From: an uncultured Bacilli bacterium
GTDB lineage: Bacteria > Bacillota_I > Bacilli_A > RF39 > UBA660
Direction: 5' to 3'
NCBI GenBank assembly: GCA_947588685.1
Contig: CANPYM010000006.1
Coordinates: 1-52,945, forward strand
DNA: 52,945 nt
Below the pieces are notes generated by a model, which was not told where the DNA came from, did not search any database, and saw nothing but the letters and a program-made list of their open reading frames with translations. Below are positions 43,901 to 52,858 of the stretch, piece after piece. The position numbers and the translations under genes are program-made. The stretch's first letter is position 1. Each line of letters starts with the position of its first letter.

Positions 43901-44257
43901 ATGTTATTTCTTTATTACCCGAAATGTTCAACTTGTAAGCGCGCTAAAGCATGGCTAGATAATCATCATCTTTCTTATAATTCTCGTGATATCGTTTTAG
44001 ATAATCCTAAATATGCAGAATTAGAAAAATGGATAAAAGATAGTGGCATAGATGTAAAACGTTTCTTTAATACTAGTGGTCTAAAATATAAAGAATTAGG
44101 CTTAAAAGATAAGTTAAGTGAACTATCTTTGGAAGAGAAGATTAAACTTTTGTCAAGTGATGGTATGCTTGTCAAAAGACCTCTTATAATTAGCGATAAT
44201 ATTACCTTAATAGGTTTTAATGAAAAGGAGTGGGAGAAAGCATTATGCAAGAATTAA
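43901..44257 (+). CDS. ArsC/Spx-family thioredoxin-fold protein
   Basis: A 118-residue protein of the Spx/ArsC/YffB family. The N-terminal FLYYPKCSTCKRAKAWLDNH has the CxxC redox pair; FNTSGLKYKELGLKDKL and LSSDGMLVKRPLIISDN match the family's conserved Arg region. It is either an arsenate-reductase-like thiol enzyme or an RNA-polymerase-binding stress regulator; sequence alone does not decide. It begins 1 nt after valS and overlaps the next gene by 13 nt, which encodes a superoxide reductase-like protein, so an oxidative-stress role is plausible. Confidence 0.85.
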   Translation: MLFLYYPKCSTCKRAKAWLDNHHLSYNSRDIVLDNPKYAELEKWIKDSGIDVKRFFNTSGLKYKELGLKDKLSELSLEEKIKLLSSDGMLVKRPLIISDNITLIGFNEKEWEKALCKN

Positions 44258-44610
44258 AATTGAAAAAATGTTTAAAATGTCATAGAATTGTCAAGATAAT
44301 AAATGGTAGTTGCCCTATTATGTGTTGCAAAGAAGAAATGGTTGACGTTATAGCTAATAGTGTCGATGCTGCTTTTGAAAAGCATATTCCCCAATATGAA
44401 GTTATTGACGGAGAAATGCATATTAGTGTTAATCATGTTATGGAAGACGATCACTATATCGAATGGATTTTAGTTAAGTATGAAGGTGGCAGCATTGAAA
44501 AATATTATCAGCCCGGCGATGAACCTACTTTAGTCGCCCCATATGAAAAAGGCGCTACTATCTATAGTTATTGTAATAAACACGAATTATGGCAAAAAGA
44601 AGTAGAATAA
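44245..44610 (+). CDS. Superoxide reductase (desulfoferrodoxin-like) protein
   Basis: A 121-residue protein that likely reduces superoxide to hydrogen peroxide. Four His and one Cys of the catalytic iron centre can be placed: KHIPQYEV, ISVNHVMEDDHYIEWI and SYCNKHELW. The N-terminal KKCLKCHRIVKIINGSCPIM, ending in CC, resembles the desulforedoxin iron domain although spacing is unusual. The GTG at 44230 lies upstream of the ribosome-binding site; ATG 44245 is preferred. Co-transcribed with the Spx-like gene and ended by a strong terminator. Confidence 0.85.
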   Translation: MQELKLKKCLKCHRIVKIINGSCPIMCCKEEMVDVIANSVDAAFEKHIPQYEVIDGEMHISVNHVMEDDHYIEWILVKYEGGSIEKYYQPGDEPTLVAPYEKGATIYSYCNKHELWQKEVE

Positions 44611-44674: not shown

Positions 44675-46666
<1,992 letters not shown>

Positions 46667-46697: not shown

Positions 46698-48893
46698 ATG
46701 CAGGAATGGAATGGTTTTAAAGGAACCAAATGGCAACAAGTAATTGATGTAGAAGATTTTATTTTAAATAATTATCAAGAATACAAAGGTAGTTCGGATT
46801 TTTTAAAGGGGATTAGTAAAAAGACGACGAGATTAACAAGTCGTATTTCTAAATTACTTACGAAAGAAGATATTACCGGTCTTTTAGACGTTGAAACATC
46901 ATCTTTAACAAGTATTGATGCTTTCGAACCAGGCTATATTGATAAGAAAAATGAAATTATTTTAGGATTACAAACTGATGATCCTTTAAAGCAGGCAGTC
47001 AATCCTCTTACACTAGATACTTCTATTGATGTGCTTAAAAATAATGGCTATCGTTTTGAACGTAGTGTCATCGATAATTATCATGCTTTTAATGATACTT
47101 ATGAAGAAAATCTTGATGAAGTAACTACAAAGGAAATTAAAAAATTTAAAGAAGTTCATATACTAGATGGTATGCCTGATAATTATGGCCGAGGTTTTAT
47201 GCTAGGCGATTATCGGCGCTTACCTCTATATGGTATTGATTATTTAATTGCGCGTAAAGAACATGATTTAAATCGTTTAAGAAAAGATATTAATTATTCA
47301 GTTATTAGAACAAGAGACGAAGTTGTAAAGCAAATAAAAGCTCTAAAACAAATAAAAATTTTAGCTTTAAGCTATGGCGTCGATATATCAAGGCCTGCTA
47401 GTAATGCTAAAGAAGCTTTTCAGTGGCTATATTTTGCCTATCTTGCTGTTAGTAAAGAGACTTGTGGTGCATCTATTCCCGTTGGTAACAATAGTGCCTT
47501 TTTAGATATATATCTTGCTCGTGATTTGGAGTTAGGCATTATAACGGAAGACGAGGCTCAAGAATTAGTTGATCAGTTCATCTTAAAACTTCGTTTAATA
47601 AGATGTGTTCGTAATGCTGATTTTAAAATGATGCTTATGGGCCGAAATACGTTAGTAACCGAAACAATCGGTGGTGTTCATAAAGAACATTCTCTTATTA
47701 CCAAAACGGCTTATCGCTTTTTAAATACGATTGAGACATTAGGATTATATCCAAGTCCCTCTTTTACAATTTTATGGTCCACGAAAATGCCTAACAATTT
47801 TAAAAGATATTTAGCTAAAGTAATGATGAAACATAACTGTTTGTGTTTTGCTAATGCTGATGCTTTAGGAAGTAGTAATTATGCTACTAACGGTCTAGCA
47901 AGCAGTTCAAAAATTGGAAAACAAATTGATTATAACGGCGGTAGTTGTAATTTAGCTAAAATCCTTCTTTATGCTATCAATGGTGGCCGTGATGAGTTAA
48001 CGGGTGAGCTTATTATTGATGGTGTAGCACCTTTAGATGATGCGACATTGACTTATTCAAAAGTTGTTCGTAATTTTGCTGTGGTTTTAAAAAAATTGGT
48101 GACTATCTATGCGGATAATCTAAATACCATTCATTATATGCACGATAAATATGGTTATGAAAGTTCATTAATGGCTTTTAATGATACCGTTGTTGAACGT
48201 TATATGACCTTTAATATATCAGGTTTTGCTACGCTTGTTGATTCTTTGTCAGCTATTCGTTTCGCTAAAGTGAAAGTGAATCGTGATGAGAATGGTTTAA
48301 GCACTGATTTTGTAGTTACAGGTGATTATCCCCATTATGGATGTGGGCTAGATGCTGTCGATAAATTAGCTAGTGATATTATAAGACTTATTAGCCGTGA
48401 ATTAGCAGCGCATCATATGTATCGTAATGCTGTTATTAAATTAGGACTTCAAAGCGTTGGTATGAGTATTTTATATGGTATGAATACTGGTACTACACCT
48501 GATGGTCGTTTCCGTGGTAGTGCTTATTCTTTTAATGCCGATTCAGGTGAGATTAAAAATACTAATGGATTACTTAATGCTCTAAAAAGTGTTATGCGAA
48601 TGCCAAGTAAACTATGTAGTGGTGGAATTATGACTACTATCAATGTTAATGCTTTAACTCTTGGTAGTAAAAGAACCGAACGGGCGGAAAACTTAATTGG
48701 CCTTTTAGATAGCTATTTTAAACAAAATGGTAGTGTTATTGCCATAAATATTATTGATAAAAAGCAGTTACCTACAAATGATAAAGCTGATGATCTTATC
48801 TTAAATGTTGGAGGCATTGTTACGCGTCATAGTGATTTACCAGAAAACATTAAAACAGCTCTTTTTGACCTAACATATTATGATAAACTATGA
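46698..48893 (+). CDS. Pyruvate formate-lyase homologue lacking the catalytic Cys pair
   Basis: A full-length (731 residues) relative of PflB. Global similarity is evident: LGDYRRLPLYGIDYLI, SNAKEAFQWLYFAYLAV, NLAKILLYAINGGRDE, LNTIHYMHDKYGYESSLMAF, TGTTPDGRFRGSAYSFNAD. In PflB the segment between these ends in IACCVSPM with two active-site cysteines; here the aligned stretch SNYATNGLASSSKIGKQ (about residues 393-409) has none. The nearest Cys, in GGSCNLAK, aligns with a non-catalytic position. The glycyl-radical loop (RVSGYAVRF in PflB) reads NVGGIVTRH, with the Gly kept. So acetyl transfer by the known mechanism should be impossible. Its stop overlaps the gene for an equally altered activase homologue. 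Possible roles are regulatory, structural or a new chemistry; none is demonstrated. Confidence 0.85.
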   Translation: MQEWNGFKGTKWQQVIDVEDFILNNYQEYKGSSDFLKGISKKTTRLTSRISKLLTKEDITGLLDVETSSLTSIDAFEPGYIDKKNEIILGLQTDDPLKQAVNPLTLDTSIDVLKNNGYRFERSVIDNYHAFNDTYEENLDEVTTKEIKKFKEVHILDGMPDNYGRGFMLGDYRRLPLYGIDYLIARKEHDLNRLRKDINYSVIRTRDEVVKQIKALKQIKILALSYGVDISRPASNAKEAFQWLYFAYLAVSKETCGASIPVGNNSAFLDIYLARDLELGIITEDEAQELVDQFILKLRLIRCVRNADFKMMLMGRNTLVTETIGGVHKEHSLITKTAYRFLNTIETLGLYPSPSFTILWSTKMPNNFKRYLAKVMMKHNCLCFANADALGSSNYATNGLASSSKIGKQIDYNGGSCNLAKILLYAINGGRDELTGELIIDGVAPLDDATLTYSKVVRNFAVVLKKLVTIYADNLNTIHYMHDKYGYESSLMAFNDTVVERYMTFNISGFATLVDSLSAIRFAKVKVNRDENGLSTDFVVTGDYPHYGCGLDAVDKLASDIIRLISRELAAHHMYRNAVIKLGLQSVGMSILYGMNTGTTPDGRFRGSAYSFNADSGEIKNTNGLLNALKSVMRMPSKLCSGGIMTTINVNALTLGSKRTERAENLIGLLDSYFKQNGSVIAINIIDKKQLPTNDKADDLILNVGGIVTRHSDLPENIKTALFDLTYYDKL

Positions 48894-49429
48894 AAGGTAA
48901 AATAACTGATATTGATCCTATGTCCTTTAATAGTGGACCGGGTATTAGATTTGTTTTAACACTTGATGATGAGGAAAATATATCTTTAACTCCTAAAGAG
49001 ACAATTGACCGAATTCGTAAGTTTCGTCCCTATTTTGGGCCTGATGATGGTGGCTTAACATTTAAAGGTAAAAATCTTTTTGCTGAAATAGATTATATAA
49101 GTGAGACTTGTCATATTGCCCATAAGGCAGGAATTACAACGTGTCTTATGACAAACGGACATAATTATGAGAAAAATTGTGTCCAATTTAGGGATATTGA
49201 CTTTATTATACTGGAAATTTCTAGTATCCCGTTATATAATTATGATAAGTTAGATGATAAGACCTTTTTAGCAATTGAACAATTTATAATGGATGCCATA
49301 ACAAGTGGCGAAAAAGTATTTTTTAAACCAATCATTAGCGAAATGGTAACAGATAAAGATGCATATCTTCTTGCCCTAGAAAATTACGCCCATACTTTTA
49401 GTTATGAGATTGTTATTGTTGATGAATAA
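48890..49429 (+). CDS. PFL-activating-enzyme homologue lacking the radical-SAM cluster motif
   Basis: A 179-residue relative of PflA (about 246 residues in E. coli). The N-terminus MKGKITDIDPMSFNSGPGIR aligns with the PflA start that ends in DGPGIRF, but the following loop with CxxxCxxC, which binds the 4Fe-4S cluster, is deleted: after GPGIRFVLTLDDEENISLTP the sequence resumes in the helix before RKFRPYFGPDDGGLTF. The SAM-binding GGEP becomes KGKN. The later AGITTCLMTNGHNYE is conserved. The C-terminal third of PflA is missing. Overlap of 4 nt with the PFL homologue implies coupled translation and joint function. It should not perform radical chemistry. Confidence 0.85.
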   Translation: MKGKITDIDPMSFNSGPGIRFVLTLDDEENISLTPKETIDRIRKFRPYFGPDDGGLTFKGKNLFAEIDYISETCHIAHKAGITTCLMTNGHNYEKNCVQFRDIDFIILEISSIPLYNYDKLDDKTFLAIEQFIMDAITSGEKVFFKPIISEMVTDKDAYLLALENYAHTFSYEIVIVDE

Positions 49430-49441
49430 GAGGAGGAGTTT

Positions 49442-50563
49442 ATGGAAAAGAAAGTAAAAATAGTTTCAACAATTTATTTTATTGTTGTAGCTATTATCGT
49501 TTTCACAAGTGATAACGTCAAATTGTTTGCGACAGCTCTAGATTATATAGCTTGTGGTAGTGCGACTGGTATACCTAAACCCATTCCTCAGGTTATAACA
49601 ATTGGTTATACTTTATTGATGGTTGGAACGCCCATTGTTCTTATCACATCATCGATTATAACTTTAGTTAAAGCGATAGTCGAAAGTGATCAAGAAAAAA
49701 TATTAAAAGCCCGAAATGTGTTAGTGCGTAAAGCTATATTAGCTGTTTTGGTATTCTTTACGGCATCAATAGTTAGATTTATATCTTCTAAGGTTGCCAG
49801 TACGGCTGACGACAAAAGCACTGTTGCGAAATGTTTGAATTGCTTTATTTATTATAATAATAATGATTGTCGACCTTCAAAGATTGATGCTCATTCTGAA
49901 GATGGTACTTACAATGAAAATTATGGTGATGTTAGTACATATACTGGTGGGACTAAACCGCATGGTGAGAAGACAATTTTAATTGGCGATTCTCGTACTG
50001 TAGGTATTTGCGGTAGTACCTCGAGAACGGCAGTTACTGATTGCCGTGATGGCGTTTTGGCTGTCCGTCAAGGTGCAGCCTCAAACACAGGAGCTCACGA
50101 TAGATTTGGATGGGGTGTATGGTTTGATAATGAAGCTATTCCAGCTGTGACAACTTATGTAAAAGAACATCAAAGTACGATATTTAATATTGTTATTTTA
50201 ATGGGAGTTAATGACTTAGGATTAACAGCTGAGCAGGCTTCGGATAATTATATCGCTGATATTGAACGTATGGCTAATGGAGACTGGAAAAGACATAGTA
50301 TCGTTTTTGTATCGGCTGGGCCAATAAAACCAGGAACTTCTTATGGTATAGGTGGATGTGTTACTCAATCCAAAATTGACGAGTTTAATAGATTAATGGG
50401 TGAAAAAATAAAGAACAAAAATTTCCATAATGTCACTTACTGTGACATAGTTGATAAAGTTGAGTGGTTATTCCCTAGTAATGATAATGTCCATTATTCT
50501 TACCCAAATGGAAATACTAATTATTTTAATGGTATTATGGATAATTGCGGTTTAAAAAATTAA
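49442..50563 (+). CDS. Surface protein: VirB2-like N-terminal module plus SGNH hydrolase
   Basis: A 373-residue protein. The first about 140 residues form a module shared with the next two genes: signal-like helix, small-residue junction (FATA), LDYIACGSATGIPKPIPQ, two membrane helices (TIGYTLLMVGTPIVLITSSI; KAILAVLVFFTASIVRFISS) separated by a basic loop, then CLNCFIYYNNNDC. The topology is that of VirB2/TrbC pilins. After a Ser/Thr/Tyr-rich linker comes an SGNH/GDSL hydrolase-like domain: ILIGDSRTVG (block I Ser), LMGVNDLG (block III Asn) and a C-terminal DNVHYSYPNGN with the His. It probably deacylates a surface glycan or lipid. AGGAGG precedes the ATG; 12 nt after the activase homologue. 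Confidence 0.8.
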   Translation: MEKKVKIVSTIYFIVVAIIVFTSDNVKLFATALDYIACGSATGIPKPIPQVITIGYTLLMVGTPIVLITSSIITLVKAIVESDQEKILKARNVLVRKAILAVLVFFTASIVRFISSKVASTADDKSTVAKCLNCFIYYNNNDCRPSKIDAHSEDGTYNENYGDVSTYTGGTKPHGEKTILIGDSRTVGICGSTSRTAVTDCRDGVLAVRQGAASNTGAHDRFGWGVWFDNEAIPAVTTYVKEHQSTIFNIVILMGVNDLGLTAEQASDNYIADIERMANGDWKRHSIVFVSAGPIKPGTSYGIGGCVTQSKIDEFNRLMGEKIKNKNFHNVTYCDIVDKVEWLFPSNDNVHYSYPNGNTNYFNGIMDNCGLKN

Positions 50564-50600
50564 CTTGTTACGAAGATTATTGGAATACGGATGTGATATT

Positions 50601-51731
50601 TTGAAAAAAAAGATTGTATATTATATGGCTCTAACCTTTTTTACAGCGTTGCTTTTAGTAGTTGTTAGTAAAAATGATGTTGCTTATGCGCTAGATTATG
50701 TTGCTTGTGGTGATGCAACGGGTATACCAAAACCAGTCCCACAAATGACTACTATTGCATATACATTGTTATTAGTTGGAGCGCCGCTTGCCTTAATTAT
50801 TGCCGCTATATCCTCTTTAACAAAAGCAATTTCTAGTGGTAATCAAGAAAATGTTTTAAAAGCTAAAGATAAACTATTCAAAAAATTCTTTATAACAGGA
50901 TTTGTTTTCCTTGTTGCTGGTGTGGTTCAATTTACATTGACAAGGGTCACTAGTACAGATAGTGATAAAAATACAGTTTCTGCTTGTTTGAGTTGCTTTT
51001 TATATTATAATGGGTGTGAAGAGTCTGATTTGGAATATAGTTCTGAACAAGGAACTAGTTCATCTGGATATACTGATGCATCTACATATGATGGAACTGT
51101 TAGTCATAAAAATGGGAACTATTTAAAATATTATAATGCGCTTACTATTTTGCATTCTGGCCAAATACCTGAAGATAATACGGTATCATTATTTGAAAAT
51201 GCTGGCCAAGCTCATTTCTATGGTGCTGAATGTGACTTACAAATGCACAATAATACTTTATATTGTTATCACAATTCTGTAACTTCTAATACGGCGTCTT
51301 TTGCTAAATATATGGAAATTTGTAAAAAGTATAATATGATAGCGCTTTTAGATCTTAAAGGCGGTACTTCAACTCTAGATGCCTTGGCAAAATATGTCAA
51401 AGCTAATGATGCCCAAAAAAGAATTATTGTTCAAACGTCTAGTACATCATCAATGCAATATTTAACTGATAAATTACCCGGAACAAAATATTGGTATTTA
51501 ATTATGAGTAGTGGTCAATTTAGTACATTTAGTAATGTTGATTATAAAAAATACAATATAACCGGTGTCAATGTTGAAAGGACAATTTCTAAAAGTCGAG
51601 TTGATACACTTAAAAGTTATAAAAACAAAGGCTTAGAGGTATGTGTTTTTTCATGGGCTAAATGGAGCGATAGTGATAAAAAACTGTTTTCTGATGCTGG
51701 GGTCGACTATATAATGACAAACTCAGCTTAG
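50601..51731 (+). CDS. Surface protein: VirB2-like N-terminal module plus GDPD-like domain
   Basis: A 376-residue paralogue. The N-terminal module repeats the pattern: VAYALDYVACGDATGIPKPV, helices TIAYTLLLVGAPLALIIAAI and FITGFVFLVAGVVQFTLTRV, and CLSCFLYYNGC. The C-terminal domain contains SLFENAGQAHFYGAECDLQM, LYCYHNS, MIALLDLKGG and a final AGVDYIMTNSA, the order of a glycerophosphodiester phosphodiesterase TIM barrel (E-x-D and H pair, then D-K, then the C-terminal strand). It may act on lipid or teichoic-acid phosphodiesters outside the cell. The start is uncertain: TTG at 50601 gives a clean signal segment and has GGATGTGAT upstream; another TTG at 50565 would add 12 residues. Confidence 0.75.
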   Translation: MKKKIVYYMALTFFTALLLVVVSKNDVAYALDYVACGDATGIPKPVPQMTTIAYTLLLVGAPLALIIAAISSLTKAISSGNQENVLKAKDKLFKKFFITGFVFLVAGVVQFTLTRVTSTDSDKNTVSACLSCFLYYNGCEESDLEYSSEQGTSSSGYTDASTYDGTVSHKNGNYLKYYNALTILHSGQIPEDNTVSLFENAGQAHFYGAECDLQMHNNTLYCYHNSVTSNTASFAKYMEICKKYNMIALLDLKGGTSTLDALAKYVKANDAQKRIIVQTSSTSSMQYLTDKLPGTKYWYLIMSSGQFSTFSNVDYKKYNITGVNVERTISKSRVDTLKSYKNKGLEVCVFSWAKWSDSDKKLFSDAGVDYIMTNSA

Positions 51732-51796: not shown

Positions 51797-52858
51797 ATGA
51801 AATACAATAAAAAATTAATATATTGGTTATTCGGTATAGCGTTAACATTTAGCGTAACGTTTATAACATCTAGTAGTACTGTCTATGCCTTAGATTATGT
51901 CGCTTGTGGTGATGCGACAGGTATACCAAAACCTATTCCAATGTTTACAACTATCGTATATACATTGCTTATTGTTGGTGTGCCACTTGCTTTAATCATC
52001 TCGTCTATTATTACTTTGGTAAAAGCTATTACAAGTGGCAATGCCGATAATGTAGTAAAGGCTAAAAATAAGCTTTTAAAAAAAATTATTATAGCTGCAG
52101 TAGTTTATTTAACGGCTGGATTAGTTAAATTTATTATTGGAAAGGTATCAAGTACTGAACAAGATAAATCGACGGTTGGTGACTGCTTAAATTGCTTTTT
52201 GTATTATAATGGTTGCACTGAATCAGAGTCTGGAAATCATACTGAACAAGGAACATATACTTCCGACTATACTGATGTATCTACTTATACAGGACTTAAA
52301 GTTGGAGAGGCTCTAACCGAAGAAGAATTTTTGAAAGAATTGAACAAATTAGATAAAGCCCCTACTTATGAGGAACTAGTAGAACTTGCTGATAAACTTT
52401 ATAAGATGCCGGAGAGTGTATTCAAGATGGTTTTTGGATGGGCCGCTAATGAGGGATATGACTCAGAAAGAAATAATGCCGGCAAGATAGATTATTATTT
52501 AGCTTATTTATCGGATTCTATTGGTATTAATTTTTATATGGGTACTAATGATGCTCAAACGGCTGATGCTATGGCCGCTAAAATTGGTGGTGCCGCTGCA
52601 TCACAATATGCGGTATGGCTTCCAAGGGCAGCTGAAGAAGCAATAAATAATCCAAAGGGGAATGCAATTACGTATAAGATTATGTATATTGTATTGCTAC
52701 ATCCTGATGAAAAAGCTCATGACTGCGATGGCTTATCCAATTACACTCCTTATGGCGGTAAGGTATATTATGATGCTGGATATTATGGAAAATATCCTAT
52801 TAAGGTGTGGACTTTAGACTATGAAGTTGATGTCCATTGGAAAGAAAAACTAAGATAG
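51797..52858 (+). CDS. Surface protein: VirB2-like N-terminal module plus unknown domain
   Basis: A 353-residue paralogue with the same first 140 residues (VYALDYVACGDATGIPKPIP; helices TIVYTLLIVGVPLALIISSI and IIAAVVYLTAGLVKFIIGKV; CLNCFLYYNGC). After the linker EQGTYTSDYTDVSTYTGLKV it has an acidic helical hairpin (EEFLKELNKLDKAPTYEELV) and a domain starting VFKMVFGWAANEGYDSERN, with HDCDGLSNYTPYGGKVYYD near the end. I do not recognise this domain; the WAANEG segment could include a catalytic Glu as in lysozyme-like folds, but that is speculation. A TATAAT at 51774-51779 and GGTGAT before the ATG indicate its own promoter. Confidence 0.75.
   Translation: MKYNKKLIYWLFGIALTFSVTFITSSSTVYALDYVACGDATGIPKPIPMFTTIVYTLLIVGVPLALIISSIITLVKAITSGNADNVVKAKNKLLKKIIIAAVVYLTAGLVKFIIGKVSSTEQDKSTVGDCLNCFLYYNGCTESESGNHTEQGTYTSDYTDVSTYTGLKVGEALTEEEFLKELNKLDKAPTYEELVELADKLYKMPESVFKMVFGWAANEGYDSERNNAGKIDYYLAYLSDSIGINFYMGTNDAQTADAMAAKIGGAAASQYAVWLPRAAEEAINNPKGNAITYKIMYIVLLHPDEKAHDCDGLSNYTPYGGKVYYDAGYYGKYPIKVWTLDYEVDVHWKEKLR

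Follow-up and report, generated by a model that had tools for sequence, protein, structure and literature searches.

The closest described systems are PflB (formate C-acetyltransferase, TIGR01255; PDB 1H16), with catalytic cysteines C418 and C419 and the radical-bearing G734, and its activase PflA (TIGR02493; PDB 3C8F/3CB8), with a CxxxCxxC motif for the 4Fe-4S cluster and a GGEP motif for SAM binding. Simulations and crystal structures place Asp16 and Asn38 of the activase as anchors of the PFL glycine loop (PMC9326890). E. coli PflB lacking both cysteines (C418A/C419A) is still made and still accepts the glycyl radical, and the loss of these cysteines therefore need not destroy the fold (PMC12338860). 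A different departure from the canonical pattern is seen in the aminoacyl radical enzymes, non-canonical GREs in which the glycine is replaced, the catalytic cysteine is kept, and the radicals are stable (PMC11528403).

The window analyzed here, a 52,945-nucleotide stretch of DNA from a 1.16-Mb genome assembly that is 88.7% complete, carries homologues of both PflB and PflA. A first-pass annotation had claimed that the two genes, open and overlapping by 4 nt, encode a PflB homologue with NGLASSS in place of ACCVSPM and a PflA homologue in which CxxxCxxC is deleted and GGEP is changed to KGKN. Alignment to E. coli PflB and to canonical PflA agrees with each of these readings, and both frames are open and overlap by 4 nt at the coordinates below.

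44684..46666, + strand: ligA, the constant upstream neighbor and marker of the ancestral pflBA slot, syntenic across 11 genomes of the genus and in 6 other genera
46698..48893, + strand: PFL-fold pseudoenzyme of 731 aa; open frame, PF02901 and Gly_radical domains, within the monophyletic dead-PFL clade
47889..47909, + strand: NGLASSS replacing ACCVSPM, with G399 at the position of C418 and L400 at that of C419 (alignments)
48813..48815, + strand: G706, the retained equivalent of the radical-bearing G734 (alignment)
48890..49429, + strand: pseudo-activase of 179 aa, a PflA homologue without the radical SAM center (TIGR02493, 53 bits; alignment with canonical PflA)
48966..48969, + strand: site of the 15 missing residues that include CxxxCxxC, at about residues 26/27, common to 7/7 pseudo-activases
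49064..49075, + strand: KGKN where the SAM-binding GGEP is expected in the activase frame (alignment)

In terms of family scores, the window PFL matches Pfam PF02901 with 411 bits (residues 18–594), as expected of a PFL, and TIGR01255 with 694 bits over residues 3–730, which lies below the family cut-off of 994. The pseudo-activase likewise scores below its family cut-off (232 for TIGR02493), and a Pfam search with it returned zero matches. Searches confirmed that the pair is homologous to 1H16 and 3C8F. E. coli PflB and PflA served as the reference rows of the alignments, and the numbering of the PflB row was verified by the positions of ACC (418) and G (734). AlphaFold models, from alignments three rows deep (window, L032, and L033), have mean pLDDT values of 53 and 41, too low for interpretation, and the fold of both proteins is predicted to be intact on the strength of sequence conservation.

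The dead PFL resembles PflB in its full-length homology, its domain order, its G734, the activase homologue next to it, and its occupation of the same genomic slot as the intact pflB of sister genera; it differs in the replacement of C418, C419, R176, R435, W333, and F432 and in its score below the family cut-off. The pseudo-activase shares with PflA the GPGxR motif, the GG.T strand, and collinearity over most of its length, whereas CxxxCxxC, GGEP, D16, and N38 are absent and the C terminus is shorter. The losses of R176/R435 and of D16/N38, the shortened activase C terminus, and the retention of the radical glycine had all escaped the first-pass annotation.

The same losses were sought in related genomes, a check that the first-pass annotation had proposed, with a sample of 12 genomes of the genus (MAG assemblies). 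A dead PFL is found in 11 of the 12, always directly downstream of ligA and always with an open frame, and a dead activase in seven (the window genome, G011, G003, G005, G006, G007, and G010). The one genome without a dead PFL, G001, likewise has no ligA in its assembly, so the locus is simply missing there. Given 11 genomes with a dead PFL, an assembly artefact is a very unlikely explanation. In G009, G002, G004, G005, G007, G010, G011, and G003, the contig with the dead PFL also carries PFOR, a few kilobases beyond it. Plasmid records contained ordinary PFLs only, at identities under 60%. The G011 and G003 relatives are MAGs with isolate names containing "Lapin", which suggests a rabbit gut.

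The pattern of substitutions in the dead PFLs is concentrated on the active site. Twenty-seven canonical PFLs share 226 invariant positions, 19 of which are changed in all 11 dead PFLs, among others R176, A273, C418, F432, R435, and L604. The first and fifth of these, R176 and R435, the pyruvate-binding residues of PFL structures, are F and S in the window PFL and are lost in 11/11. Six of a list of 11 active-site residues known from PFL structures are among the 19 (hypergeometric p = 6e-5), and the mean loss at active-site positions is 9.4 of 11 versus 3.0 elsewhere. C418 has become glycine in every dead PFL, and no other canonical-invariant position has settled on a single new residue across all 11. 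C419 is kept by G008 (TGCSS) and G009 (VGCSS) alone. All seven members of the window subclade keep the radical glycine, which stands in the motif NVGGIV in the window PFL, as do G004 and G008; in G002 and G009 it is Glu. Newly fixed in the window subclade are Q430→D, A434→G, T600→K, and R278→N. The PFL active site was lost once, through C418→G and a rebuilding of the pyruvate pocket; the simplest order inferred from the tree is that C418 and the pocket went first and that the radical parts went later, repeatedly, in separate lineages.

The seven dead activases share an identical 15-residue deletion and a shortened C terminus, a pattern that a single event in their common ancestor would explain. 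GPGIR is retained in the window protein and GPGxR in all seven; CxxxCxxC is deleted and E79 of the SAM motif is gone from each. Of the 46 activase residues that are canonical-invariant, all seven lack 22, including the cluster cysteines, D16, N38, G78, E79, D104, and K131, and all seven retain 10 (G17, P18, G19, R21, G71, G72, T74, T105, D124, and L183). In terms of the glycine-loop anchor, D16 is replaced by S, A, C, or N and N38 is deleted, and the old activation contact is therefore probably gone; binding of PFL by the pseudo-activase in the old mode is thus unsupported. The activase gene overlaps or abuts the dead-PFL gene in 7/7. No activase is present at the dead-PFL locus of G002, G004, or G009, and the stretch is masked in G008. 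In a family-wide search of 386 genomes, drawn evenly, activases from other genera did not reach the scores of the dead ones, the best being 154 bits (G030) and 146 bits (G143) versus 241–327 bits inside the genus; the top-scoring activases of G030 and G143 are intact. Distances between dead PFLs and dead activases are correlated (r = 0.72, 21 pairs), and this was not used as evidence because shared ancestry alone suffices to produce it.

The origin of the pair is indicated by its position. The slot downstream of ligA in six other genera (G143, G030, G059, G309, G218, and G311) is occupied by canonical pflB followed by canonical pflA, with ACC or SCC and GYAV as the PFL motifs, and in G030 PFOR comes after this pflBA. 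In a maximum-likelihood tree, the 11 dead PFLs form one clade (100/100) that adjoins the ligA-slot PFLs (e.g. those of G143 and G030), and the canonical PFLs of the genus lie away from it as a separate PFL lineage. The dead pair is therefore the pflBA operon native to the family, which underwent a single conversion in the genus ancestor; it is not a spare copy of the working pfl of the genus.

A canonical pfl pair, for which a search had also been advised, was found outside the ligA slot in 8 of the 12 genomes, all eight of which also have a dead PFL. It is located between a sporulation-type sigma gene, presumably sigG-like from its sequence, and an rluD-like gene. In G005 and G009 this junction is intact and carries no pfl, and their assemblies (about 94% complete) contain no canonical-strength match to PF02901 or TIGR02493 elsewhere. 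The lack of canonical pflBA in the window genome is not interpretable as a real absence, as the flanking sigG is also unassembled. At the sigG locus, the canonical PFLs of G007 (L078) and G010 (L075) are of another PFL subtype (TWVTCS) than the remaining six, suggesting that the working pfl was replaced at one site.

The first-pass annotation had argued against random decay and had named premature stops in relatives and dN/dS near 1 as observations that would count against its own reading. Neither was found: frames are broken in 0 of 11 PFL and 0 of 7 activase copies, and dN/dS = 1 was rejected by maximum likelihood for every tested pair (2ΔlnL at least 539 for PFL and at least 51 for the activase). 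Because most synonymous sites are saturated, the dN/dS values themselves are unreliable, and dN compared across genes of the same species pair is the safer measure. For G004 against G008, the dN of the dead PFL (0.092) equals that of ligA (0.095), and the canonical PFL has a dN of 0.063; for G003 against the window genome, the dead PFL reaches 0.276, about 2.6 times the ligA value of 0.106. Constraint is thus tight in one subclade; in the window subclade it is weaker, though still evident. The argument against random decay is thus well supported by 11/11 intact homologues, monophyly, shared synteny, and strong purifying selection, and conserved homologues that lack catalytic residues under such selection fall within the pseudoenzyme class.

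Taken together, we favor, with a probability of about 0.6, the reading that an ancestral ligA-linked pflBA operon turned into a pseudoenzyme pair in the ancestor of this one genus and that its function is radical-independent, probably in scaffolding or ligand binding. The PFL active site went once, with C419, G734, and the activase Fe-S loop then lost lineage by lineage. The large PFL barrel would now work without radicals, most likely as a scaffold or as a small-molecule binder with an altered pocket (D430, G434, K600, and N278 in the window subclade), and the translationally coupled pseudo-activase would serve the dead PFL of that subclade as a binding partner. This function would be independent of active PFL in the cell. 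Against this reading, the faster replacement evolution of the window subclade could also stem from partly relaxed constraint. The earlier proposal, that two pseudoenzymes were conserved for a new role and did not decay at random, is well supported; strict pairing is not, with G002, G004, and G009 lacking the activase.

A more elaborate history is suggested by the dead PFL of G008, in which TGCSS and G734 are kept and the pyruvate arginines are gone. G008 could be a living relic of an ancestral switch from a two-cysteine PFL to a one-cysteine (Gly-Cys) GRE of new specificity, whose relatives would have lost the radical parts several times independently while keeping the fold, one subclade forming with its matching dead activase an obligate ligand-sensing complex. 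We regard this account as tentative and rather unlikely.

The main rival to a pseudoenzyme pair is that the dead PFL is still an enzyme, its remodeled pocket running a new, non-radical reaction. The pocket does appear rebuilt rather than merely eroded, as seen in C418→G in 11/11 and in the four fixations of the window subclade (430, 434, 600, and 278). However, the two subclades have no newly arisen group of conserved catalytic-type residues in common, glycine 418 alone being newly fixed among canonical-invariant positions in all 11. A new catalyst is judged unlikely.

A role as partner of active PFL, which the first-pass annotation had offered as an example, is weakened by the distribution of canonical genes. 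Mixed dimers with active PFL, or titration of the activase by the dead pair, would be consistent with the co-occurrence of dead and canonical PFL in 8/12 genomes; PFL is a dimer, and the acceptance of a glycyl radical by C418A/C419A PflB implies that a dead PFL can engage an activase (PMC12338860). However, the canonical copies belong to a separate PFL lineage, and G005 and G009 keep the dead PFL with an intact but empty sigG-rluD-like locus and no canonical PflA by score. A role solely as regulator is thus unlikely, since two species retain the dead PFL without canonical pflB or pflA, and regulation of canonical PFL as a whole is considered improbable. A related idea, that the dead PFL gates the formate channel FocA, was rejected because Form_Nir_trans occurs in 1 of 15 genomes.

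Continued use of the radical, with G734 activated by a canonical activase for a cysteine-independent purpose such as oxygen sensing, could account for the glycine in 7/7 of the window subclade, G004, and G008, and radical insertion does not need C419 (PMC12338860); with Glu at this position in G002 and G009, and with G005 having the glycine but no intact PflA in its assembly, it is highly improbable. Slow decay of both genes as dying remnants, which the faster window subclade, the loss of the activase in the sister subclade, and the mosaic loss of C419 and G734 might recall, is already largely refuted and very doubtful, given frames unbroken despite saturated synonymous sites and the rejection of dN/dS = 1.

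In comparison with other non-canonical systems, the dead PFLs are like the aminoacyl radical enzymes in being GRE homologues off the GRE fingerprint that were first noticed in metagenomes (PMC11528403). Those enzymes have Ala, Ser, or Thr in place of the glycine and keep the catalytic cysteine, whereas the dead PFLs have lost cysteines and mostly keep the glycine, the window PFL having lost the catalytic Cys and kept the Gly. The Gly-Cys motifs of G008 and G009 recall the one-cysteine, dehydratase-type GREs (E. coli YbiW, IGC), but the dead PFLs are of PFL type, and most of them, the window protein included, have lost the remaining cysteine too. GrcA (autonomous glycyl radical cofactor) likewise derives from PFL yet does not itself catalyze the PFL reaction; it consists of the small radical domain only and needs the radical, whereas the dead PFL retains the entire PFL.

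As a class, pseudoenzymes are already known. The open-access literature searched, outside of which most subscription papers lie, yielded no report of a pseudo-PFL or of a GRE-activase pair in which both members lack catalysis yet are kept, and a doubly dead but retained GRE-activase pair is thus unreported in that literature. The genus and family offer a graded series, from the intact pair of sister genera through a dead PFL with one cysteine and a dead PFL alone to the dead pair, which makes a second, non-catalytic function of the radical enzyme fold testable. Homology-based annotation would assign formate production to genes that are predicted to be incapable of it.

The pair also appears to border a variable island that is subject to recombination. 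The window and G011 are about 98% identical in the ligA region; from about 46,800, some 100 bp into the dead PFL gene, identity is ~80%, and this low identity spans the membrane-module genes before returning to 97% at PFOR and its far side. By a Nei-Gojobori estimate, dS between the two is 0.12 in ligA versus about 0.9–1.2 in the pair, roughly eightfold. Accelerated evolution of the pair between these two genomes was rejected, the dS jump and the sharp edge indicating recombinational allele exchange.

In terms of neighbors, the three window genes that follow the pair (49442–50563, 50565–51731, and 51797–52858) share a similar N-terminal membrane module (..YVACGSATGIPKP..) and differ in their C-terminal domains (a weak GDSL lipase match, GDPD, and one unassigned). 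Genes of this kind come after the dead pair in most subclade species and after the dead PFL in G004, and they may form a cassette encoding variable proteins that are secreted or exposed at the surface. PFOR comes after the membrane-module genes in G011; the window genome instead has a type VII secretion-like cluster immediately upstream of PFOR (L097, contig C22:55000-67248), with a 1534-aa EssC-like ATPase and several small WXG-like proteins recognized by eye. On the other side of ligA, an ArsC/Spx-like gene (window 43901–44257) overlaps by 28 nt a divergent desulfoferrodoxin gene (44230–44610), which scores 76 bits against a cut-off of 147 and, by eye, keeps its metal ligands.
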